From contig QKAU01000006.1 in the NCBI GenBank assembly GCA_003246265.1, forward strand, positions 124,001 through 188,000: a stretch of 64,000 bases of DNA. The letters run 5' to 3'. This document shows, piece after piece, positions 44,236 through 59,599 of this stretch (its first letter is position 1; every line of letters starts with the position of its first letter). The DNA comes from Kiritimatiellales bacterium. GTDB lineage: Bacteria; Verrucomicrobiota; Kiritimatiellia; Kiritimatiellales; Pontiellaceae. The translations under genes and the position numbers were made by a program. The notes beneath the pieces were generated by a model. It made no database searches and was not told where the DNA came from. It saw nothing but the letters and a program-made list of their open reading frames with translations.

Positions 44236-45357
44236 CTATTTCAGTTTATTCAGCAAATCGAGATGGCCGGCGAGCCAGTCGGAATCCTTCGCCGCCTTCT
44301 TGGCCGGTGCGTCTACCGCCTTGGGTGCAGGCTGCTTCTGTTCGGGAGCCTTGGCCTCTTCTTCAACATCCAGGTCCAGGGCGACCTCAACCATGGGTTC
44401 CCGGACCATCACTCCTCCCTCGCCCCCGGCATCTATCGATCCCGAATCGTAGAGCTTGGAATCGAACTCCTGCCAGTTCATGGGATCGCCGGAGAGCTCT
44501 TCGTCGGCCATATCGAGATCGACTTCTGCGACGGGCTCGCCGCTCTTGTCGATCTCAAGGGGGAAGAACTCCTCTTCGCGGGTCTTGCGCATGGCGACTT
44601 CACGCTTGGGCGCAGGGGCTTCCACGACCGGGACGGGCGCTACGGCCGCGATGGCCGGTGCCGCTGCGGCAGGCATTTCATCGGATTCGTCGTCGAGCGC
44701 TTCCGCCGGCATTTCAATCACCAGTTTCCCGGCCGCTTCCTGCCGGTCCGTGTCCGCCACCATCTCGGCCCGGACCTGGGCAAAGGCCGGCACGGTTGTT
44801 GGATTATGGCCGATGCCAAAGCGGCAGAGCACGGTCCAAAGCACGCCAATGATTACGCCGGCCAGAACGAAAGGAAAGACGACGGCATTGAGCAGGACAC
44901 CCGTACCCGCGCCGGAAACCACGCTGTTGATCACCACATCGAACACCAGCAGGGCCGCGATGATGAAGACAAAGGGAGCCTGGCCCTTTTTGAAGAAGGC
45001 CAGCCGCACCTTTGCCGTGGCATTGCCGACCGCCAGGGCACCGAAGGCGCCGCAGGTCGCTCCCGACGTCGTGATTTCGGCCATGTTGACCCCCTCCATG
45101 CCGCGCACCCCCTGGAAGGCCAGGAAGCCCCCGGCCACGTAGGAGAGTGCCACGACGAGCGGCTGAAGCCCCAGCAGGGTTGCCGCCCAGAGGATCGAAA
45201 CCACGTTCAGCACCACGAAGGCACTCCACATAGGCGCGTTTTCAACCGGACCAATCGATCCGCGGCTCGCGGCGATCCACACGCCCAGGTTGGCCGCCAC
45301 AAGGACCGCACCGGCGGCCAGCACCATCGCCAGATGTCTATTTGCACTGTTTTTCAT
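44236..45357 (-). CDS. Membrane protein with long acidic cytoplasmic tail
   Basis: A 373-residue protein of unknown function. Four to five hydrophobic segments lie in the first 185 residues: about 9-31, 43-82 as a pair, 122-142 and 150-182. The remaining 190 residues are hydrophilic, rich in Ala, Pro and Glu, and strongly acidic (EEEFFPLEIDKSGEPVAEVD, MADEELSGDPMNW, VEVALDLDVEEEAK), ending with an amphipathic SDWLAGHLDLLNKLK. The tail has the look of a docking or scaffolding region. It starts 15 bases after the 230-aa gene and ends about 30 before the 54-aa gene, so the three form one operon. Confidence 0.7.
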   Translation of the reverse strand: MKNSANRHLAMVLAAGAVLVAANLGVWIAASRGSIGPVENAPMWSAFVVLNVVSILWAATLLGLQPLVVALSYVAGGFLAFQGVRGMEGVNMAEITTSGATCGAFGALAVGNATAKVRLAFFKKGQAPFVFIIAALLVFDVVINSVVSGAGTGVLLNAVVFPFVLAGVIIGVLWTVLCRFGIGHNPTTVPAFAQVRAEMVADTDRQEAAGKLVIEMPAEALDDESDEMPAAAAPAIAAVAPVPVVEAPAPKREVAMRKTREEEFFPLEIDKSGEPVAEVDLDMADEELSGDPMNWQEFDSKLYDSGSIDAGGEGGVMVREPMVEVALDLDVEEEAKAPEQKQPAPKAVDAPAKKAAKDSDWLAGHLDLLNKLK

Positions 45358-45372: not shown

Positions 45373-46065
45373 CTAGTTCGTGGCCATGCCGACTTCCGCG
45401 AAGGCCTTGGCCAGTACGCCGAGCATCGTGTTGTTCAAATCGTCGACCTGTACGCTGACCAGGCTCCTGCGGCTGGAAAGCACCCTGGGAACTTCGCAGA
45501 AATCCAGGGACTTCAGGCACTCGGTGTAGCGGGGATCCAGCGAAATCCGCAAATGTCCCTCGCTCAGGTCCACAAATGCGAATTCTTCCCATTCATCGTA
45601 GTTCCACAGGCTGCATACGCCATCCTTCATGGTCACACGCACCGTGCCGCCACAGCTGTCGTTCAGGCAGGTGTAGTACTGCTTGAAAACGTTGAACAGG
45701 CGGCCCGATTCATCGAGCTTGTTGAAATGCTGCGCAATATCCTTCTTGATCGGTGGAACATCGAACCCTTCGGCCTTGGTGCGCTCAGCGGCCGGCTTGC
45801 TTTCGGACCTGGGTTCGGGCGCAGGCGCGGCGGCAGGTTTTGCCGGCGAAGCCTTCGGAGTCTCCTTTCTGGCTGGCTGCGCGGTGGCCACGGGTACTTC
45901 CGTGCCTGCGCTTCCATCCAGGACGCGCAGGAGCTTGGAAACCACGGAATCGCGCAAAGCCTCGAGGCGCTGGCGCTCCTCTACCTTCTCCATCAGCTGC
46001 AGGTATTCCCCGTACGGCATCTGGAGCTTCCCATTGCTCTTCGATATCAGATATGTGTTGCTCAT
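45373..46065 (-). CDS. 230-residue protein of unknown function, two domains joined by a Pro/Ala linker
   Basis: First gene of a three-gene operon. The N-terminal 55 residues (LQMPYGEYLQLMEKVEERQR) form a strand plus helix like the module of the 54-aa protein. A low-complexity Lys/Pro/Ala linker covers about 58-103. The C-terminal domain (about 105-230) is mixed alpha/beta, with RLFNVFKQYYTCLNDSCGGT, MKDGVCSLWNYDEWEEFAFV and SLVSVQVDDLNNTMLGVLAK. CLNDSC could bind a metal or form a disulfide. It has no signal peptide, so it is cytoplasmic. The start is ATG 46065; 19 upstream in-frame residues are rejected. Confidence 0.65.
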   Translation of the reverse strand: MSNTYLISKSNGKLQMPYGEYLQLMEKVEERQRLEALRDSVVSKLLRVLDGSAGTEVPVATAQPARKETPKASPAKPAAAPAPEPRSESKPAAERTKAEGFDVPPIKKDIAQHFNKLDESGRLFNVFKQYYTCLNDSCGGTVRVTMKDGVCSLWNYDEWEEFAFVDLSEGHLRISLDPRYTECLKSLDFCEVPRVLSSRRSLVSVQVDDLNNTMLGVLAKAFAEVGMATN

Positions 46066-46269
46066 GTTCGTATCCCTAACCTTCTTTGTCTGTCGATGGC
46101 TTCTAGCACGCCACCCTCTCAAGCATCCTTTGTGCCACAGCTGACGGGCCTCCGAAAATTACACCTCGCCAGGCACGGATTCTTAACGCGCCCCAAATAC
46201 AGGCATGCATCGTGCTTGATCTACGAGACACAACCGGATCGTTAGGGGTTCGGAAACGTGGAGGCTACA
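46066..46269. promoter_or_regulatory. Divergent intergenic region of the unknown cluster
   Basis: About 200 bases separate the leftward three-gene operon from the rightward exported-protein gene. Both must be started from here. I see no clear consensus promoter or operator. A GGAGG ribosome-binding site lies at 46260-46264 for the rightward gene. Confidence 0.4.
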
Positions 46270-47546: not shown

Positions 47547-50500
47547 ATGTTTATGAGTGATATCCGGATCCATGGTCTTCCTCTTCGCCGGTGGATTGCG
47601 CCCGTCCTGCTGGCCACCACCTCCACCCTGCCGCACCCCTGCGCTGCGCAACCCGCCCTCGCCGCCGTCGTACCGGTCGAAATGAGCTGGCCGGCCTATG
47701 TGCTCATCGGGGGCTTGCTGATCTTTTCAACCATTCTCCTCTTCGTGATCCAGCAGCGCTACCGCATAGCCAGCCGGGCCCTCAAGGATGTTACCACGGA
47801 ACTTGGTTCCACGCGCCATCGTCTGGTCGAGACCGGACAGGAGCTGGAACAGGCCAAGAACGAGCTCAAGGCAACGGCAAGCCGGTACCAGGGCATCCTG
47901 TTCGATGCCGAAGTCGGCATCTTCCAGATGGATCTCGACGGAAAATGTACCTATATCAACACCGCCCTGCAGAACCTCTCCGGCCTCTATCCGAAGAAGG
48001 CGTTCAAGGAAGGACTGCAAACCGCCATCCATCCCGAGGACCGTGCGCGCTTCGACGAGGCATGGAGCGTGTTTGCGAAAGGATCCGATCCGTTTGAACT
48101 GACCTTCCGGTTCCACCACGGCAAGGGCGCCGATGTCCACGTCGCCTGCCGGGCCGGACGAATTCTCAATGCGAAGAAGGAGGTCGAAAGCTACATCGGA
48201 TGGATTGGCGACGTCTCCGCATTCCATGGTGAAAAACGGGCGCAACAGGCCATCACCCATCGCTACGAGCATTTCGTGGCGCAGACGGTCGAGGGCTTCT
48301 ACCAGCTTTCCGCCACCACGCCGATCCCCCTCTCCGCCTCGCCGGCCAAAATGGCTGAAAACATCATGGCCTCCATGGTTCTGTCCGATTGCAACGATAC
48401 CTTCTCCGCCATGTACGGCGCCATCCCCTCCGACCTGGCCGGAAAGACCATCGGGGAGTTGAAGGGGGGATGCGGACCGTTCGGCAACGCCGAATCCGTA
48501 AAGGCTTTCGTGGAATCGGAATACAAACTGATCGATTGTGAAACCACTCGGCAGGATGGAAGTGGAAACCACGTCAACCTGCTCAACCATGCCGTAGGTC
48601 TCGTCGAGGACAATAAGCTGGTGGCCATTTGGGGATCGCAGCTCAATATCAGCCAGCAAAAGCGCGAGCGCGCCGAGCTCTCCAGCCAGGTCCATTTCAT
48701 GCAGCGCATCCTCAACACCCTGCCGGCCGATGTCCACGTCAAGGACACCCGTTGCCGCTACCTCTATGCGAGCAAAAAGCTGGCCGACCGCACCGGCATT
48801 CCCCAGGCCGACTGGATCGGCAAGACCATATTCGAAGTGCTGCCGGCCACCCCGCGCGACCACGACCACAACGCCATTGAAACGATGAAGTCCGGCAAGC
48901 TCAACCGCACGGAGCGCGCCTACGAAGCACGGGGCAAGGCGGGTTGGATGGAAACGATCCAGATCCCGATGGTGTCGGACAAGGGGCTGGTCGAGGGCGT
49001 GATCGGGCTTTCGCTGGAGATTTCCGACCGCAAGAAGAAGGAAGAGGAGATCCGCCAGCAGGCCCGCCAGCTCGAATCGATGCTCAAGGAGCGCACCGAG
49101 GAACTGCGCACCTCGGAGAACGAGTGCAGCAAGACCGCCTCCACCCTTTCGGACACCCTCCGCAAGCTGCGGATTGCCGAAGCGCAACAGTCGGCACGCG
49201 AACAAGCGTTCCAGGAGCAGCTCGCGGAGCGCAAACGCATCGAGGAAACCCTGCGCCGGAGCGAGGAGAGCCTGCTCGAAAAGCAGAAATTGTTGGAAGG
49301 GTCGCTCTCCCAGCGGCTCGACGAACTGGCCCGGGAAACCGACAAGCGCAAGAAATGGGAAGAGCTGCTCGCCATCAAGGAGGACGAGCTGCGCAAAATC
49401 GAGGACCATGTTTCGGGCCTCCAGGAAGTGCTCGACCAGGAAACCGCCCTCAAGCGCCAGGCCGAAGCCAACCTCGAAGCCAACCGGATGGAACTCGAGA
49501 AGTACCGCCGCGAAGCGCATTCGCTGTCGGAAGGGCGCGAAAAGGAGCTGGCCGCGTTGGAAGCGAAGCACGATAAGGCGTTCAAGGGCGAATCCGATGC
49601 CAGGACCAGGGCCGAAGAACGGCTGAAGAATGCCGAGGGGCAGTTGCACCAGGCCCAGGAGAAGATCCGCAAGCTCACGGAGCGCCACGCCTTCGAACTC
49701 GAGCAGGAGGTGGCCGAACGCAAGGCCGCCGCCGAAAAGCTGATCCAAAACATGGAAGAACTGGACAGCCTCAAGCAGCAGTTCAACGAGCGGATCGAGA
49801 CGGAAACCAAAACGATCAAGAACGAGTTGGCCCAGCGGCAGATCCGCGAGAAGGCGGTACGCCAGCACGAAAAGGAACTGGAAAAGCGCATCAAGGAACT
49901 GGAAGAGGTCCTCCAGGCGAAAACCCGCGAATATGCCGATCAGATCCAGGCGCGCGAAGGCGCCGAACTGCACAGCAGGCAGGTCGAGCAGCGTCTCGAG
50001 CTGATGGGTCGCCGGCAGCAGGAACTGGTTGCGCGGGAAACCCAGAAGCTCAACCTCAGCATCGCGGAGATCCGCCTGCAGGAGGTCAAGCTCCGCAAGC
50101 AGGTCGGCGAACTCCAGGAACAGAAGGAATCGCTGGAGGAAACCCTGCAGCAGCGCGACGGCGAACTGGCGAAGGTCACCCGCGAGCATGGCAAGGTCGA
50201 GTCCTCCCTGGCCGAGGCGCAGGCCGAGCTCAAGCGGGTCGCCAGCGACCACTCCCAGCTCCTCGCCCGCGAAACCCAGACGCTCCGCCGGCAGATCGAC
50301 GCGCTGCACGCCAGCGAGAACGGCCTCAAGGGGCAGATCGAGACCCTGAACAAGGAGAAGCAGGAATTGGAGGGCAGCCTCAAGAACCGCAGCACCGACC
50401 TCTCCAAGGCCGCCACCGAATACCGCAAGGTGGTCGACGCCTACAAGGCGCTGCAGGATCGGCTGAAGCAACACGTCGAAGAACAGGATGCCGCCATTGC

Positions 50501-51737
50501 CCGCAAGACGGATTCCCTGCGCAAGGAGATCGGCCAACTGGACGAAACCGGCAAGGTGCTGCGCGCCAAGGAGGCCGAACTGTCCGTTAGGATTGACGAG
50601 CAGCAAACCGCGATCGGCAAGCTGACCGACAACCTGAAGGCCGAAACCGCCAAGCGCGAGGCAAGGGAAAAGGATCTCGCCCGGTTGCAGTCCGAACTTG
50701 AATTCGCCCAGAGCAGCGCCGAAAAGCAGCTACGCGACAAGAGCCGCGAACTCGAAATGCAGCTCCGCGAATACCGGCAGGCCGAGGAGGGTCTGAAGCA
50801 GCAGCTGTCCAAGGCGGAACAGACGCTCAAGCAGCAGACGGCCGCGATGGAAACGCTGCGCCTCGAACGCGAGCACGCCATCAAGAAGACGGTCGAAGTC
50901 GACCGCATCGTCGACACGCTCAAGAAGGACCACCAGGCGGAACTCAAGAAGACCCTCGCCGAAATGCGCGAAACCAGCCGCATGAATTCCGCGCTGGTCG
51001 ACGAATTGAACGACGCCATCCAGGAGGCGCTCAACCCGGTCATCAAGACCACGCTGATCATGGAAAAGGCCGAGAACCTCAGCGCCGAGCAGCGCCGGAA
51101 CCTCGACAACGTCAACCACAACTGCAGGACACTGGTCGACACGATGAACTACCGCAGCGAACTCACCCACCTCGCCGACGGCGACGGGGCCCTGCAGAAG
51201 GACGACTGCGACCTCCACCAGCTCATGGCCGGCATCGACAAGCAGTTCGGCCACCGGGCCGAAACCAAGAAGCTCTTCTTCGCCGTCAGCTTTGCCCAGT
51301 ACCAGGCGGCGAACAACGTGCCGAAACTGGTCCAGACGGACGAGCGCAAGCTGCGCAAGATCCTTTCGATCCTCGTGGGCTACGCCGTTGAACAGACCGA
51401 CAAGGGCCGGCTGGGCCTGCACGCCACGCGCAAGCCGGACTCCGGCAACGGCATTGCCGTAGCGTTCGAACTCGCCTACACGCCGCGGGACGCGCGGGAC
51501 CGGCTGCTCGACTCGATCTTCCAGTCCGGTGATGCCGAGGGCACGGTCGACCTGAAGTACGGCCTGACGCTGGCGCGGCGCTACATCCGCATGATGGACG
51601 GCGAAGTGGCCCTCGAATACCGCGACAAGGGCGTGACGGCCATCGTACTTCAGTTTCCTTTCCGGAAGGCGGGCGGCGGCACCGGCGCGGCCGGGCAGGA
51701 TGGAGCGGTCGACGAGAAGAAGGCCGGCGCGGCCTAG
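47547..51737 (+). CDS. Giant PAS / coiled-coil / degenerate histidine-kinase-like membrane protein
   Basis: A 1396-residue protein. A signal-like N-terminus is followed by one membrane segment (about 48-68). Three PAS-like domains cover about 110-500, each with a PAS-type start such as GIFQMDLDGKCTYIN or VHVKDTRCRYLYASK. Residues about 500-1140 are an almost unbroken coiled coil rich in Glu, Lys, Gln and Arg. The C-terminus is laid out like HisKA plus HATPase. The H-box region reads SALVDELNDAIQEALNP, with no phosphorylatable His. The N-box reads TDERKLRKILSILVGYAVEQ, without the key Asn, and only a weak YGLTLARRYI replaces the G2 box. It is probably a sensor-like scaffold and not a kinase. 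No response regulator is nearby. Confidence 0.75.
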   Translation: MFMSDIRIHGLPLRRWIAPVLLATTSTLPHPCAAQPALAAVVPVEMSWPAYVLIGGLLIFSTILLFVIQQRYRIASRALKDVTTELGSTRHRLVETGQELEQAKNELKATASRYQGILFDAEVGIFQMDLDGKCTYINTALQNLSGLYPKKAFKEGLQTAIHPEDRARFDEAWSVFAKGSDPFELTFRFHHGKGADVHVACRAGRILNAKKEVESYIGWIGDVSAFHGEKRAQQAITHRYEHFVAQTVEGFYQLSATTPIPLSASPAKMAENIMASMVLSDCNDTFSAMYGAIPSDLAGKTIGELKGGCGPFGNAESVKAFVESEYKLIDCETTRQDGSGNHVNLLNHAVGLVEDNKLVAIWGSQLNISQQKRERAELSSQVHFMQRILNTLPADVHVKDTRCRYLYASKKLADRTGIPQADWIGKTIFEVLPATPRDHDHNAIETMKSGKLNRTERAYEARGKAGWMETIQIPMVSDKGLVEGVIGLSLEISDRKKKEEEIRQQARQLESMLKERTEELRTSENECSKTASTLSDTLRKLRIAEAQQSAREQAFQEQLAERKRIEETLRRSEESLLEKQKLLEGSLSQRLDELARETDKRKKWEELLAIKEDELRKIEDHVSGLQEVLDQETALKRQAEANLEANRMELEKYRREAHSLSEGREKELAALEAKHDKAFKGESDARTRAEERLKNAEGQLHQAQEKIRKLTERHAFELEQEVAERKAAAEKLIQNMEELDSLKQQFNERIETETKTIKNELAQRQIREKAVRQHEKELEKRIKELEEVLQAKTREYADQIQAREGAELHSRQVEQRLELMGRRQQELVARETQKLNLSIAEIRLQEVKLRKQVGELQEQKESLEETLQQRDGELAKVTREHGKVESSLAEAQAELKRVASDHSQLLARETQTLRRQIDALHASENGLKGQIETLNKEKQELEGSLKNRSTDLSKAATEYRKVVDAYKALQDRLKQHVEEQDAAIARKTDSLRKEIGQLDETGKVLRAKEAELSVRIDEQQTAIGKLTDNLKAETAKREAREKDLARLQSELEFAQSSAEKQLRDKSRELEMQLREYRQAEEGLKQQLSKAEQTLKQQTAAMETLRLEREHAIKKTVEVDRIVDTLKKDHQAELKKTLAEMRETSRMNSALVDELNDAIQEALNPVIKTTLIMEKAENLSAEQRRNLDNVNHNCRTLVDTMNYRSELTHLADGDGALQKDDCDLHQLMAGIDKQFGHRAETKKLFFAVSFAQYQAANNVPKLVQTDERKLRKILSILVGYAVEQTDKGRLGLHATRKPDSGNGIAVAFELAYTPRDARDRLLDSIFQSGDAEGTVDLKYGLTLARRYIRMMDGEVALEYRDKGVTAIVLQFPFRKAGGGTGAAGQDGAVDEKKAGAA

Positions 51738-51783
51738 GGCGACCGACCTTGACAGGCAGGGCACACCCCCATAGTTTCAAGGC

Positions 51784-52761
51784 ATGAAAATGCCTATCGT
51801 TCCCACGGCCCTCCTGTTCGCGGCCTCGGCCGCTGCCGCCCCGCTACCCGAAACATGGGCCTATCTCATGAAGGGTGAAGAACGCCTCTTTCCGGCCGGC
51901 GCCCCCTTCACCGACATCGCCTGCTTCAGCGCCTCGGTCGATGGCGATGGGCACCTGGCGGGCGGCCATGCCGCCCCGCCCCCCCTGGCCGGCGCCCGCC
52001 CGGGAACCCGCTATCACCTCGTGGTCACCATCCCGTGGAACACCACCCTGGCCCACATCTACCTCGACCCCTCCCTACCCTTCCGCAACCGCATCATTGC
52101 GGACATCGTGGAGCGCTCGGCACGCTTCGACGGCGTTCAGCTCGATTTCGAGAGCATCGCCAAGGAGGACGGCACCGCCTACCTCAATTTCCTTGCCGCC
52201 GTCAGGAAGGCACTGCCGCGCGGCAAACGGTTCAGCGTCGCCGTCATGGCGCGCTGGGAGGAACACAAGCTGAAGAATCCGCAGGATGCCTTCGACTACC
52301 CCTTCATCGGCATGATCGCCGATCGCGTGGTCGTCATGGCCTACGACGAGCATTTCAGCGGTGGCGTAGCCGGTCCCATCGCGTCGTTGCCGTGGTGCAG
52401 GGAGATCTACCGCTACGCGCTCAAGACCATCCCCCGCGAAAAGCTGGTCATGGGTGTTCCGCTCTACGGCCGCGGATGGCAATCCCCCAGCCTGGCCAAG
52501 GCCTACAAGAACCGCGAGGTGGTCGACGAGCTGCTGTCGAAGGGCATCCGGTCGGCGTGGGACCGCGAGGCCGGCGGCGCCTATTCGTTCACCGAAACGG
52601 TCACGGTGCAGGTCCACTACGAGACCACGCAGTCACTGGGGGCCAAGCTCGATCTCTATTCCTCGGAACCGATCCAGGGCGTGGCGTTCTGGAGGATCGG
52701 CCAGGAACCGGACGGATTCTGGCGGCAGCTCAACCCCGCCAGGCAAGGAGGAACGCGATGA
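51784..52761 (+). CDS. Exported GH18-type glycosidase
   Basis: A 325-residue TIM-barrel protein with a signal peptide (MKMPIVPTALLFAASAAAA). The GH18 catalytic motif is DGVQLDFE, with Glu123 as acid. Position 119 is Gln where classical chitinases have Asp, as in the spore-cortex and peptidoglycan-type branch (DGVNIDFE). VVVMAYDEHF and VMGVPLYGRGW are further GH18 blocks. Its target is more likely peptidoglycan or another N-acetylglucosamine polymer than chitin. It overlaps the next small gene by four bases (ATGA). Confidence 0.82.
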   Translation: MKMPIVPTALLFAASAAAAPLPETWAYLMKGEERLFPAGAPFTDIACFSASVDGDGHLAGGHAAPPPLAGARPGTRYHLVVTIPWNTTLAHIYLDPSLPFRNRIIADIVERSARFDGVQLDFESIAKEDGTAYLNFLAAVRKALPRGKRFSVAVMARWEEHKLKNPQDAFDYPFIGMIADRVVVMAYDEHFSGGVAGPIASLPWCREIYRYALKTIPREKLVMGVPLYGRGWQSPSLAKAYKNREVVDELLSKGIRSAWDREAGGAYSFTETVTVQVHYETTQSLGAKLDLYSSEPIQGVAFWRIGQEPDGFWRQLNPARQGGTR

Positions 52762-54927: not shown

Positions 54928-55926
54928 TCATTCCGCCGGGGTCCCGGCCCCATCCTCCTCCGCCGGCGCCGCAGGCGGCTCCTTGGCCTTGACCAGCTGG
55001 TCGCGGCTGACGAGGAAGTCGTTGGCGTCGTTGTCGGAAACCACGTAGGTCCAACCGAAGAGCTTTCCGGGCGCATCGCCCGAGAAATGGACATAGCGGC
55101 CATGTTCGGCCGGCCCTCCCACTTCGACGACATAGGTCAGGTTGGTGGTCGAAGCCGTAAAGAGTGTCGCATTGGTAAAGCCCAGGTCGGCGTCGGAAAG
55201 GTTCGGATCGGCCACGCCGGTGCACTCGAGCCGCTGCAGCGCGGAACGTATCCGGCTCGCTTCGGACGGCTGAAGCTCTTCGGACTCACGGTCCAGTCCG
55301 GCCAGCGTCCATTCCGTTCCGTCGACCTTCAGCTCGATGCCGCCCGCCTTGACCGCGACAATCTCCGCTGGGGAAACATCGAGGAGCTTCCTGTCCAGCC
55401 ATTCTACGGCCTCCTCTGAAAAGGGGCGGAAGTCGTAGTCGACCAGGTAGATTTCGGCGCCGCCGTTGCGCCGAACGAAGTGCTGGTTGGCCCATCCGGC
55501 GGTGTCCGACGCCTCGCGCCGCGCACCCACCTCCACCCGGGCCACCTCCTTGCCGGTACTTTCGAGCACGATCGACCGGGCATCGTCGAAACCGAATTCC
55601 GAGGCATCGACGTGGGCGGAGCGCACCGGTTTCCCGAGTTCGACCCTGGCCGCGGACCGAAGCGCTTCGGCCAGTTTCGAGAAGTCGGCTGGATACCCAT
55701 AGAGGGAGTCAACCCGCCAGATCCCCTCGCGCTTCGCCAGCGCAACGGTGTTGGAACCCGCCGCGACCGACAGGCCGTCGAGCGCGTTCAGTTCCACGCC
55801 CTGCAGCAAGGTTGTTTCCCCGGCCGGGGCCGGATGCCGCTTCGCGGCACCCTGCCGCTGGATCAGGGCGACTCCGCCTAGCAACAGCAGGACCACCATC
55901 ATGGCCATCAGTTTCTTCGCATTCAT
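54928..55926 (-). CDS. DUF4340 membrane-anchored protein
   Basis: A 332-residue protein with one N-terminal membrane segment (LMAMMVVLLLLGGVALI) and a large outside domain. It carries DUF4340-like repeats: ALAKREGIWRVDSLYGYPAD, WANQHFVRRNGGAEIYLVD, LLDVSPAEIVAVKAGG and WTLAGLDRES. The tail is acidic and rich in Ala and Pro. DUF4340 proteins usually follow Gld-type ABC exporters, as here: it is the last gene after ATPase, permease and Gldg protein. The start is MNAKKLM at 55926, 19 bases after the Gldg-family stop. Role unknown, perhaps an exporter subunit. Confidence 0.8.
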   Translation of the reverse strand: MNAKKLMAMMVVLLLLGGVALIQRQGAAKRHPAPAGETTLLQGVELNALDGLSVAAGSNTVALAKREGIWRVDSLYGYPADFSKLAEALRSAARVELGKPVRSAHVDASEFGFDDARSIVLESTGKEVARVEVGARREASDTAGWANQHFVRRNGGAEIYLVDYDFRPFSEEAVEWLDRKLLDVSPAEIVAVKAGGIELKVDGTEWTLAGLDRESEELQPSEASRIRSALQRLECTGVADPNLSDADLGFTNATLFTASTTNLTYVVEVGGPAEHGRYVHFSGDAPGKLFGWTYVVSDNDANDFLVSRDQLVKAKEPPAAPAEEDGAGTPAE

Positions 55927-55945
55927 AGCATTCTCCTTGAGGGAT

Positions 55946-57769
55946 TCAACGGGTTCGGCGGATCCAAAGGCCGCGGCCGATGCCGAAGGCGGCGACAACC
56001 AGCGGGACCGCGAGGATGTTGAGAAACTTCAGCCGCACGCCGAGCCGCTCGATGTCGCTGCGCAGGTTCTTGCGAACCTCCTTGAGCGATTGCTGGGTCT
56101 GGAAGACCTCCTCGCGAAACGTCTTCACTTCCGACTCCTGCTCCGGACTCAGGAAGACCTGCTGCCCGTCGTCGCGGGCCTGCTGGAGCTGTTCGAGCCG
56201 CGCCTGGGTGGCCTGCAGCTTTTCGTTGAGCCGCTGCTCCTCGGCCTGCCATCTGAAGGCGGCCTCCTTCTCCAGTTCGATCACCCGCTCGAACGGGCGG
56301 TCGAAGGCGCTGCGGCTGCGCAGCCCGATCAGCGCATCGCTGCCGCACAGCTGCTCGACCAGGTTGAGCGCGAAGGCAAGGTTGTCGTTGCGCGGCTGGA
56401 CCACCGTCTGGCCGAAGAGGTTCATGCTCTCGGTGGCGTAGCGGTCGGCAATCATGTCCACGTCGGCCACCAGCACCACAATGCCGGTCTTCACGCCCAG
56501 CTTGAGGCCCTCCTCCCGCTCGGGAAAGGCGGTTGGAAAGAGGCCGGAAAGACGCACCGCCATGGTTTGCCGCCGGCGGCTGTCGGGGATGTCGATCTTG
56601 CCCGAACGGACCGCGAAGCTGCCGACGGTGAAGCCATCCTCCGAGGTGAAGAGCAGGTCGGTCCGCTCCAGCCCATTGGTGGCCGCCCCTTCAAAGGCGC
56701 CGCCGAAGGGGAGCATGATCTCGGAGAGCGAACCGGTCGCCACGTCTTCGCGGCTGATGTTCGGTTCGCGTAGCGACATCCATGCGGCGTTGCGCATCGC
56801 CCTTCCCTGTCCGTCCGAAAGCAGGCTGGCCACCGATTCGTCGGCCGCCAAGTCGGCGGTCTGCGCCAGTCCCCACGCGGCGGCGAGGCGGTTCAGGTCC
56901 GACGCCTCCGGCGGCGGCGGCATGCCCATTTGCATCATCTGCGGATTGGCGCTCTCCCGCGCGGCCAGGCACAGCGGGTCGGTGAAGGCCAGCAGGCGGC
57001 CGCCGCGCAGCACGAACTGGTCGATCGCGTAGAGCAGTTCCTCCGAAACGCCCGCCGGATGGATGAGCACGAGCACATCGATGTCCGAGGGAATCTCCGT
57101 GGCGTCCATGGCGATCTCCTCCGTCTCGTACTGCCGCTGGATTTCGGAGACGACCGCCCACTGGCGGCTCCCACCACCCATACCCATGTAGGGGTTTCCG
57201 CCGCCGTTGACAGGCAGTGCGCTCAGCAGGCCGACCTTCGCACTCTTTTCCGACGAGACCTCGGAGACCGTGCGCGTCAGCATGTACTCCAGCCGCGGCT
57301 CGCTCTCCTGCGAAAGCAGCGGAATCGCCGCCTCGCGGTTGCCCGACACGGCGACGATGCCGAAGTAGATGCCCCCGCCCATGCCGAACATGTCGAGCGA
57401 TTGCGGCTGGAGCCCATAGCGCTGCGCCCACTCCTCCTCGTCGGAATCGGGTTCGGGGTCGTATTCCTCGACCACCAGGTAGCCGCCGGCGCGCGATTCG
57501 TACTCCTTCAGCAGGTCGCGCACGCGGGCCGCGAAATTCTTCATCGGAGCCGGCACCTGTTCGTTGCCTTTGGAGAAGTAGAACTTGAGCGTCACGTCGC
57601 GGTCCAGCCCACCCAGCAGTTGCTTGGTGCCCTCGGATAGGGTGTAGAGGCGGTCCTCCGTCACATCCATCCGCGCCCGCACGGGACGTAGCACCGCGTT
57701 CAGGGCGATCAGGATGCCGAGCATCAGCAGCATGCCCGCCACCCCCGTCGTTTTCTTCATCTGTTTCAT
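55946..57769 (-). CDS. Gldg-family (ABC_transp_aux) membrane protein
   Basis: A 607-residue protein with an N-terminal membrane segment (GVAGMLLMLGILIALNAVL) and a C-terminal one (FLNILAVPLVVAAFGIGRGL). Between them is an extracytoplasmic domain of the ABC_transp_aux type: RMDVTEDRLYTLSEGTKQLL, LKFYFSKGN, YLVVEEYDPEPDSDEEEW and DVLVLIHPAGVSEELLYAID. A coiled-coil stretch (about 495-575) precedes the last membrane helix. It is homologous to GldG, a partner of GldA and GldF in Bacteroidetes gliding, but is common in bacteria that do not glide. It lies 7 bases after the permease gene. Confidence 0.85.
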   Translation of the reverse strand: MKQMKKTTGVAGMLLMLGILIALNAVLRPVRARMDVTEDRLYTLSEGTKQLLGGLDRDVTLKFYFSKGNEQVPAPMKNFAARVRDLLKEYESRAGGYLVVEEYDPEPDSDEEEWAQRYGLQPQSLDMFGMGGGIYFGIVAVSGNREAAIPLLSQESEPRLEYMLTRTVSEVSSEKSAKVGLLSALPVNGGGNPYMGMGGGSRQWAVVSEIQRQYETEEIAMDATEIPSDIDVLVLIHPAGVSEELLYAIDQFVLRGGRLLAFTDPLCLAARESANPQMMQMGMPPPPEASDLNRLAAAWGLAQTADLAADESVASLLSDGQGRAMRNAAWMSLREPNISREDVATGSLSEIMLPFGGAFEGAATNGLERTDLLFTSEDGFTVGSFAVRSGKIDIPDSRRRQTMAVRLSGLFPTAFPEREEGLKLGVKTGIVVLVADVDMIADRYATESMNLFGQTVVQPRNDNLAFALNLVEQLCGSDALIGLRSRSAFDRPFERVIELEKEAAFRWQAEEQRLNEKLQATQARLEQLQQARDDGQQVFLSPEQESEVKTFREEVFQTQQSLKEVRKNLRSDIERLGVRLKFLNILAVPLVVAAFGIGRGLWIRRTR

Positions 57770-57776
57770 CGTCCGG

Positions 57777-58523
57777 CTACCTCCCCACTTTGTTCTTGAG
57801 CACGACCTGCGTCGCGAAGAGCATGAAGACCATCACCGACGCGAAGTAGGCAAGGTCGCGCAGGTCGACCACGCCGCGCTGCAGCGTTTCGAAGTGCGGC
57901 ATGAAGCTGAACGAGGCCACCCCGTCCACCAGCCACGCCGGCGCCCAGCGCGACAGCAGGTCGGTGACCGGCGGATAGCCCGCCAGGATCAGGAAGAGGC
58001 CGATGACCACCGCCAGGATGAAGCTGATCACCTGGTTGCGCGTCAGCGCCGAGGTGAACATGCCGGCCGCGACGTAGGCACCGGCCAGCAGGCCGCTGCC
58101 GAGGTAGCCCGACACCACCGCACCCATGTCCGGCGAGCCGAGGTAGGCGGCCGTCGCGGGCACCGTGAAGGTCAGCGCCAGCGCCAGCAGCATGAAGAGC
58201 CACGCGGCCAGGAACTTGCCCAGCAACGCCTGCAGCGGCGTGACGGAGACCGTGAAGAGCAGCTCGATGGTCCCCGAACGGCGCTCCTCCGCCCAAAGGC
58301 GCATGGCGACGGCCGGCACCAGGATCATGTAGAGCCAGGGATGCCAGACGAAGAAGCCGGAGAGGTCGGCCTGACCCGCTTCGTAGAACCTTCCCATCGA
58401 AAAGGTGAAGAAGCCGGCCAGCATCAGGAAGATGATGATGAAGACGTAGGCCACCGGCGAATCGAAGTAGGCGCGCCACTCGCGCTTCGCGACGGCGAGC
58501 ACATGGGATGCGGCTTCGTTCAT
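57777..58523 (-). CDS. ABC-2 type permease (GldF-like)
   Basis: A 248-residue inner-membrane protein with six hydrophobic segments. It begins LAVAKREWRAYFDSPVAYVF, the usual start of this ABC-2 family, with EERRSGTIELLFTVSVTPLQ after the second segment. It is the membrane part of the exporter formed with the ATPase gene, whose stop overlaps its start by one base (TGATG). The end is 7 bases before the Gldg-family start. Start ATG 58523. Confidence 0.9.
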   Translation of the reverse strand: MNEAASHVLAVAKREWRAYFDSPVAYVFIIIFLMLAGFFTFSMGRFYEAGQADLSGFFVWHPWLYMILVPAVAMRLWAEERRSGTIELLFTVSVTPLQALLGKFLAAWLFMLLALALTFTVPATAAYLGSPDMGAVVSGYLGSGLLAGAYVAAGMFTSALTRNQVISFILAVVIGLFLILAGYPPVTDLLSRWAPAWLVDGVASFSFMPHFETLQRGVVDLRDLAYFASVMVFMLFATQVVLKNKVGR

Positions 58524-59461
58524 CAGGCCACCTCCATTTTTTCCGTGTCTTCGGTAATGGTGATCTGCCGGAAGACGTCGTCGAGCCGCCCGTCGTCGAC
58601 CTTGATGTCGGCCACCTTCCAGCGGTGCTCCTGCGCGGCAGCCAGCACGTCGCCGGCGATGGACCTGCCCGCCTTCGGGAAGGCGACGATGCTCCCGTTC
58701 TCCAACGTCTCCACCTTGCCGACGCCGGGAATCCCAGCGAGGGTTTCGGCGATTCCTGCACCCGTGGCGGAGAGGGTGACCGCGTTGTAGCGCGCGCTCC
58801 GGGCCTTGAGCGCGGCGGGCGTGTCGTCGGCCACCACCTTGCCGGCGCTGATGATGATCGCGCGGGTGCAGATGGCCTCCACCTCCTCGAGGACGTGGGT
58901 CGAAAGCATCACGACGCGCTCCCCGGACATGTCGCGGATCATGTCGCGCACGACCTGCTTCTGGTTGGGGTCGAGCCCTTCGGTGGGTTCGTCGAGCAGC
59001 AGGATGTCGGGATCGTGCAGTAGCGCCTGGGCGAGGCAGGTGCGCTGGCGGTAGCCCTTGGACAACGTTTCGATGGTCTGGTTGCGCACCGGCTGCAGGA
59101 AGCATCGCTCCAGCGCGCGGTCGACGCGACTCTCCCGCTCGGCCCCGCTGAATCCGCGCACCTCGGCGAGGAAGCGCAGGAAGGCAGCCACGGTCATGTC
59201 GCCGTAGAGCGGCGTGGTTTCCGGCATGTAGCCGATTCCCTTCTGCGCCGCCACGGGGTTTTCCGCCACGTTGATCCCCTTGACCCATACGCTGCCCGAC
59301 GTCGGCGGCAGGAAGCCCGCCACCATCCGGATCGTGGTCGTCTTCCCCGCGCCGTTCGGCCCGAGGAAACCGAGCACGGTCCCCTTCCGGACTTCGAAGG
59401 AGATGCCGTCCACCGCGCGTCTCCGTCCGAAATCCCTGACCAACCCCTCTGCCTTGATCAT
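58523..59461 (-). CDS. ABC transporter ATP-binding protein (GldA-like)
   Basis: A 312-residue ATPase. Walker A is GPNGAGKTT near residue 36, the signature is LSKGYRQR, Walker B is ILLLDEPTEGLDP and the H-loop is LSTHVLEEVE. The C-terminal 80 residues (VTLSATGAGIAETLAGIPGV) form the extra domain common in Gld-type ATPases. The start is MIKAEGL at 59461 with an AAGGAGAG ribosome-binding site. It heads the operon ATPase-permease-Gldg-DUF4340. Confidence 0.93.
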   Translation of the reverse strand: MIKAEGLVRDFGRRRAVDGISFEVRKGTVLGFLGPNGAGKTTTIRMVAGFLPPTSGSVWVKGINVAENPVAAQKGIGYMPETTPLYGDMTVAAFLRFLAEVRGFSGAERESRVDRALERCFLQPVRNQTIETLSKGYRQRTCLAQALLHDPDILLLDEPTEGLDPNQKQVVRDMIRDMSGERVVMLSTHVLEEVEAICTRAIIISAGKVVADDTPAALKARSARYNAVTLSATGAGIAETLAGIPGVGKVETLENGSIVAFPKAGRSIAGDVLAAAQEHRWKVADIKVDDGRLDDVFRQITITEDTEKMEVA

Positions 59462-59599
59462 CGGTATTGCTCTCCTTATTGCTACGTTCTGCATCCTTTA
59501 TCGGAGGAGGTTTTTCGATCCCCCTCCATCTCCGCGCAAAAAGAGCGGAATGGGATAACGAGACTTCGCAAGGCAGGTCCCGTTCAAACTTTTTCGTTG

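Follow-up and report, generated by a model that had tools for sequence, protein, structure and literature searches.

What does a very large membrane protein do when it is laid out like a sensor histidine kinase but its kinase end appears to be dead? The question is raised by a 1,396-residue protein encoded in a 64,000-nucleotide stretch of a Kiritimatiellales bacterium (Pontiellaceae; assembly GCA_003246265.1, contig QKAU01000006.1, positions 124,001 to 188,000), which we refer to as the window. The organism is a Pontiella-like marine anaerobe (Kiritimatiellota). A sequence-only reading of the gene had described a membrane segment, three PAS-like regions, about 640 residues of coiled coil and a C-terminus arranged like HisKA-HATPase but stripped of catalytic residues. 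Our analysis bears out this layout: the giant protein consists of a signal-peptide-like start, one transmembrane (TM) helix, three PAS folds, a rod of 633 residues, a DHp+CA head and a short tail ending in AGAA (Table 1). The head keeps the kinase fold and has replaced its catalytic residues throughout a clade of orthologues, and for signalling or organisation the giant protein probably relies on shape and binding, not on phosphate transfer.

The AlphaFold2 model of the C-terminal 267 residues shows a DHp+CA fold, with a predicted local distance difference test score (pLDDT) of 84 and a predicted template modelling score of 0.80. Its best matches among solved structures are GacS, RetS and DivL, with Z scores of 20.9 (7z8n) and 19.8 (6dk7) for RetS/GacS and 19.5 for DivL (4q20; 221 residues, root-mean-square deviation 4.8). 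Pfam gave no HisKA match in the giant protein, and the HATPase_c match at residues 1264–1373 scored 22.4 bits, below the cut-off of 26.4, so that the curated thresholds for both families are missed. The 13 best-scoring kinases outside the giant clade all have intact HE[IL]RTP, NLxxNA, D[TS]GxG and GxGLGL motifs, and most window-genome kinases that could be aligned retain the H, N and G motifs. Among the 21 aligned heads of the giant clade, the position of the phospho-accepting His (D1156 in the window protein) is occupied by Glu in 13, Asp in four, and Gly, Gly, Arg and Thr in the others, with no His; the N-box Asn position (Y1279) holds Tyr in 18 heads and His in three, the G1-box Asp position (DxGxG; Y1311) holds Tyr in 20 and Phe in one, and the G2 box (GxGxG) reads mostly YGLTL. 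The missing H-box His and the N-box Tyr first noticed in the window protein are thus family traits, and none of the 21 orthologues has both the His and the Asn motif. The G boxes, which had been called eroded, are indeed altered in all 21, but the replacement residues are themselves conserved (Glu/Asp, Tyr, Tyr), which argues that the kinase motifs were replaced rather than merely lost and that the domain was repurposed. Judging from the alignment, the two tyrosines would lie in the ATP pocket of the head.

The position of the H-box required a choice between two registers. Setting the invariant Pro1164 on the H-box Pro places Q1159 at the His position, with Gln in 14 of 21 heads and His in one (G027); this was our first register, and it was replaced after a gap-free alignment to the 13 intact kinases put D1156 there. 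We prefer the D1156 register because in it the H-box Pro is still visible in G032 and G041 (EDLTAPLEP and EDLNGPLVP, compared with HEIRTPLNA), and because residues 1–246 of the model pair end to end with GacS 267–512. At this constant offset, model residue 27 (D1156) falls at GacS 293, which we take to be the phosphorylated His of GacS. Alignment and model together make D1156 the most likely H-box position, and the family retains His in neither register, apart from G027 in the Q1159 register.

Besides the window genome, 17 genomes of the genus carry strong orthologues of the head, in the great majority of cases within full-length genes, and every genus genome that is at least 92% complete, that of the window included, carries the giant gene except G015. 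Divergent orthologues are present in the sister family (G035, G039, G041 and G032). All 21 heads form a single clade (support 100/100) on a long branch apart from active kinases, and the clade is surrounded by a score gap, with 280 bits for the family versus 118 for the nearest outside kinases. With its fold retained, its catalytic motifs lost and its gene conserved, the giant protein has the properties of a pseudo-histidine kinase. Two genomes carry the gene as two separate reading frames, with the break falling between PAS2 and PAS3 in G024 (L048) and near the rod end in G008 (L046), through either sequencing error or genuine fission. A 959-residue open frame running antisense to the giant gene (window 47727–50606, minus strand) is apparently a side effect of GC-rich codon usage.

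At the other end of the protein, Pfam detects PAS_4 (2.1e-21) and PAS (5.1e-17), two stretches apiece, and an AlphaFold2 model of this region (pLDDT 83) contains three PAS-like folds at about residues 122–225, 250–367 and 395–491. Two PAS domains are therefore seen by profile, and the middle one is seen in the model and in two-PAS structural matches (FixL and LOV-HK) that span residues 111–387; matches in the fold search with this region were dominated by PAS1. No bound cofactor or ligand is predicted for the PAS domains. The PAS region is 55–63% identical in most genus members and is conserved to the same degree as the head. PAS3 holds many invariant residues in the orthologue alignment, and when genome contigs were scanned with a PAS3 peptide, matches came solely from records labelled Kiritimatiellales, Pontiella/Pontiellaceae or Verrucomicrobia. 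The N-terminal signal-peptide-like and TM pattern likewise recurs in the orthologues. Because QQRYR follows the TM helix, the remainder of the protein is predicted to be cytoplasmic, and the giant protein of Pontiella is predicted to be anchored in the inner membrane.

The rod between the PAS domains and the head is conserved in length as well as in sequence. The distance from PAS3 to the head is exactly 633 residues in eight species (G000, G005, G021, G001, G014, G009, G017 and G027), and these rods, compared without gaps, show 40–51% identity to the window protein in register versus 12–17% out of register. Proline is absent from ten genus rods, that of the window among them. Compared with itself, and judged against shuffled versions in which the hydrophobic positions stay in place, the window rod gives its strongest signal at 39 residues (z 8.4), followed by harmonics at 78, 117 and 156, and in the three species tested the hydrophobic periodicity peaks at 3.545, or 39/11, such that 39 residues make 11 turns. 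Longer rods have insertions of 76–82 residues, or roughly two repeats, at three sites, and the G004 rod has an additional insertion of 18 residues. We found nothing relevant on a 39-residue coiled-coil precedent in the literature searched. Fully helical, the rod would be about 94 nm long (0.1485 nm per residue). The earlier suggestion of a structural role with mechanical signals is plausible, given the exactly conserved length, the lack of proline and the regular repeats.

The C-terminal tail is a further conserved element. All 18 genus members end in GAA, with differing codons and a variable linker before the tail, and 14 of 17 aligned genus members end in AGAA. As the transfer-messenger RNA tag of the window genome ends in ALAA, an ssrA-like degron is possible; the conserved end may be a tag for proteolysis or an adaptor, and it could also serve other uses of a free C-terminus.

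Finally, the locus itself is conserved across the genus, with the multi-TM gene and the gene of about 230 codons pointing away from the secreted-protein gene, the giant gene and the GH18 gene, in this order. Of the genomes scanned, 14 of 16 in the genus and 3 of 3 in the sister family have the sigma-54 element GG-N10-GC ahead of the giant gene, compared with an expectation of 0.018 per 350 nucleotides, with the annotated start shifted further downstream in a few cases. The element also precedes the divergent pair in 13 of 13 genomes, and 9 of 14 have a pattern of the same kind ahead of the gene for the secreted protein. RpoN is present, and together with the conserved element it supports membership of a sigma-54 regulon. 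In these genomes GG-N10-GC also occurs before nifH and before genes for a PilT-type ATPase, secretin, pilin-like proteins and flagellar proteins, supporting the identity of the motif as a sigma-54 promoter; genome-wide, the bare pattern is just modestly above a reversed-pattern control. As a general theme, sigma-54 governs exterior structures (PMC3162934). A link with type IV pili by presence and absence was uninformative, PilT and RpoN being nearly universal.

Table 1. Features of the giant gene and its neighbourhood (window coordinates).
Feature	Position	Strand	Basis
Giant protein, 1,396 residues, PAS-PAS-PAS-rod-pseudokinase	47547..51737	+	Open reading frame, Pfam, orthologues
N-terminus, residues 1–70: signal-peptide-like segment (ends ..PCAAQ) and one TM helix (about 49–68), then QQRYR	47547..47756	+	Sequence
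Three PAS folds, about residues 120–491	47904..49019	+	Pfam, AlphaFold2, PDB matches
Coiled-coil rod, residues 497–1129, 633 residues, 39-residue super-repeat, no proline	49035..50933	+	Sequence comparison, periodicity
Pseudokinase DHp+CA, about residues 1130–1376 (D1156, Y1279, Y1311)	50934..51674	+	AlphaFold2, PDB matches, motif counts
Conserved C-terminal tail AGAA-COOH	51723..51734	+	Orthologue alignment
Sigma-54 promoter of giant gene, TTGGCATGTTAGATGCTTTA (GG-N10-GC), 49 nucleotides 5′ of start codon	47498..47517	+	Motif scan
Sigma-54-like promoter of upstream secreted-protein gene, CAGGCATGCATCGTGCTTGA	46200..46219	+	Motif scan
Sigma-54 promoter of divergent pair, GTGGCACAAAGGATGCTTGA	46119..46138	-	Motif scan
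Upstream gene, 381 residues: secreted, repeat-rich, C-terminal hydrophobic segment and basic residues	46258..47403	+	Synteny, no Pfam match
Divergent gene, about 230 residues, matches no known family	45373..46065	-	Synteny
Multi-TM protein, acidic tail, 373 residues, matches no known family	44236..45357	-	Synteny
GH18-family protein (Glyco_hydro_18, 6.1e-26; DGVQLDFE motif kept), own sigma-70-type promoter	51784..52761	+	Pfam, synteny

The promoter of the GH18 gene, TTGACA-N17-TAGTTT (window 51749–51784), is the only match to the pattern used anywhere in the window and is kept in most orthologous loci; it ends 6 nucleotides before the ATG, which suggests a leaderless messenger RNA. Sigma-54-type promoters also occur outside this locus. 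In the window genome one precedes nifH (G000:C22:79972, L108), so that nitrogen fixation by this organism is likely, as is reported for Pontiella agarivorans (PMC10880615). Clusters of seven to eight sigma-54 promoters lie near a second rpoN copy at G024:C1:1941969-1984239 and G027:C2:326886-370341 (L115–L143) in relatives of Pontiella, and several of them precede flagellar genes (flgB, flgD, flgG-like, fliO-like and flhA); PMC7356697 describes Pontiella itself as non-motile. A small conserved protein of about 72–107 residues (FHELLDWQIxxYRxAV...) is found repeatedly 3′ of such promoters in several genomes (L112, L129, L130 and L132). Elsewhere in the window (54928–59494, minus strand), a gliding/ABC-type cluster comprising an ABC ATPase, a membrane part, ABC_transp_aux and DUF4340 adjoins purD/purE in an ordinary Gld-like transporter layout.

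For the function of the giant protein, we favour, at about an even chance, a pseudokinase relay or scaffold that belongs to a sigma-54 envelope programme and acts by docking. The protein would be an inner-membrane-anchored pseudo-histidine kinase, most likely dimeric, whose cytoplasmic PAS domains would shift their conformation or dimer packing, and whose continuous coiled-coil rod, in fixed register, would convey or display the PAS state at a distance. The DHp-CA head, lacking the phospho-acceptor and the nucleotide-binding residues, would serve as a docking module with no phosphotransfer, binding either a response regulator in the manner of DivL or an active kinase in the manner of RetS. Sigma-54 would turn on the giant gene along with the secreted repeat protein and two uncharacterised proteins, one of them membrane-bound, and this co-regulation suggests that the likely setting is the building or control of a cell-envelope structure. 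We are more doubtful of a stricter form, in which the PAS state is carried about 94 nm by a register-locked rod of 39-residue repeats to a nucleotide-free docking-switch head, with the rod length evolving mostly in whole repeats and the sigma-54 envelope structure being special to Kiritimatiellales.

Several observations weigh against the docking interpretation. The head retains some active-looking features, namely the F-box Phe in 19 of 21 and one G2 Gly in 18 of 21. The rod length is not universal: the subclade of G007, G003, G018 and G012 has an 81-residue change and 3–5 prolines, this change is offset in G007 by a loss of 33 residues elsewhere in the rod, and sister-family rods are rich in proline, with G035 also bearing extra PAS domains. 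Strict phase-locked transmission therefore cannot be required everywhere. Furthermore, there are no receiver or kinase genes among the annotated neighbours of the giant gene, which thus has no cognate response regulator nearby, and no partner was identified. A single-domain response regulator in G024 (L121), which sits 3′ of a GG-N10-GC promoter, is a candidate lead.

Part of the same evidence would also fit a scaffold or cytoskeletal tether, comparable to the AglZ/FrzS pseudo-receiver coiled-coil proteins or to the scaffold PodJ; its rod and head would arrange proteins at one place in the cell, its PAS domains would only dimerise, and no signal would pass along the rod. The long proline-free repeat rod, the quantised rod lengths suggestive of a spacer, the co-regulation with surface genes and the scaffolding of the kinase PleC by PodJ described in PMC8980812 all speak for it; however, the invariant residues of PAS3 exceed the needs of a mere dimeriser and the DHp-CA fold of the head is complete, its pocket replacements being constrained, and we lean towards considering this tether unlikely. 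We regard as quite improbable an inhibitor of the RetS type, whose head would heterodimerise with one active histidine kinase and block or drain its phosphorylation. Among solved structures the head matches RetS and GacS best, the window genome has 16 HisKA matches above cut-off, and several mechanisms are described for RetS on GacS (PMC5992135), but RetS has receiver domains that take phosphate whereas the giant protein has none, and the 94-nm rod would need to pair with a short kinase. An unorthodox active kinase or phosphatase with non-canonical residues could draw on the overall fold, the retained F-box Phe and G2 Gly, and the His of G027 three residues off the expected position. The family-wide change of the N-box Asn to Tyr/His and of the G1 Asp to an aromatic residue, along with the precedent of DivL, which lacks autophosphorylation and binds ATP weakly (PMC4211667), leaves such an enzyme only a slight chance. 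As for a decaying sensor-kinase pseudogene, to which the missing catalytic motifs and the two reading frames in G008 and G024 might point, we rejected it on conservation, as full-length frames occur genus-wide and promoter, synteny, tail and rod length are all conserved, and its probability is negligible.

Pseudo-histidine kinases are known from few systems, and here a whole clade is without any intact catalytic box, while the fold, the specific replacement residues, the exact-length rod and the sigma-54 promoter are under selection. The family is a natural system for two questions, namely the role of a kinase fold unable to bind ATP and the passage of a PAS signal via a coiled coil over tens of nanometres. 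A pure culture exists of Pontiella sulfatireligans F21, whose orthologue shares the rod length of 633 residues.

The sequence-only reading knew of no described system with this layout. This holds for the layout in the literature searched, but not for pseudo-histidine kinases as such, which are already known (DivL, PMC4211667; RetS, PMC5992135). At the level of the locus, Proteobacteria provide a known case of a sigma-54 site associated with PEP-CTERM surface genes (Haft 2006, PMC1569441). This PEP-CTERM/PrsK-PrsR regulon shares with our locus a surface theme and a secreted protein whose gene follows a sigma-54 promoter and whose C-terminal segment is hydrophobic and basic. We rejected PEP-CTERM sorting for the 381-residue protein encoded upstream, as it has neither the PEP motif nor a Pfam or NCBIfam match, and no PrsK/PrsR lies beside it. 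In sequence, the nearest relatives of the head are active PAS/hybrid histidine kinases (e.g. L160, L161 and L165; at most 118 bits), and the 13 compared have all motifs intact and none falls inside the giant clade. DivL resembles the giant protein in combining PAS domains with a DHp-CA head devoid of the phospho-His, and this head binds a response regulator and has neither kinase nor phosphatase activity (PMC4211667). In DivL, by contrast, Tyr occupies the His position, a 633-residue rod and 39-residue repeats are absent, and a sigma-54 setting is not demonstrated. The ATP-binding boxes of DivL are also much less altered than those of the giant protein. RetS, likewise devoid of kinase activity, regulates another kinase (PMC5992135). 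RetS and GacS are the nearest solved folds to the head, but RetS has receiver domains and a periplasmic sensor, and no rod. The H-box His is present in RetS. AglZ/FrzS-type proteins carry a pseudo-receiver rather than a pseudokinase, have no TM helix or PAS domain and are, to our knowledge, not homologous to the giant protein; they nevertheless join a dead two-component domain to a long coiled coil, as the giant protein does.

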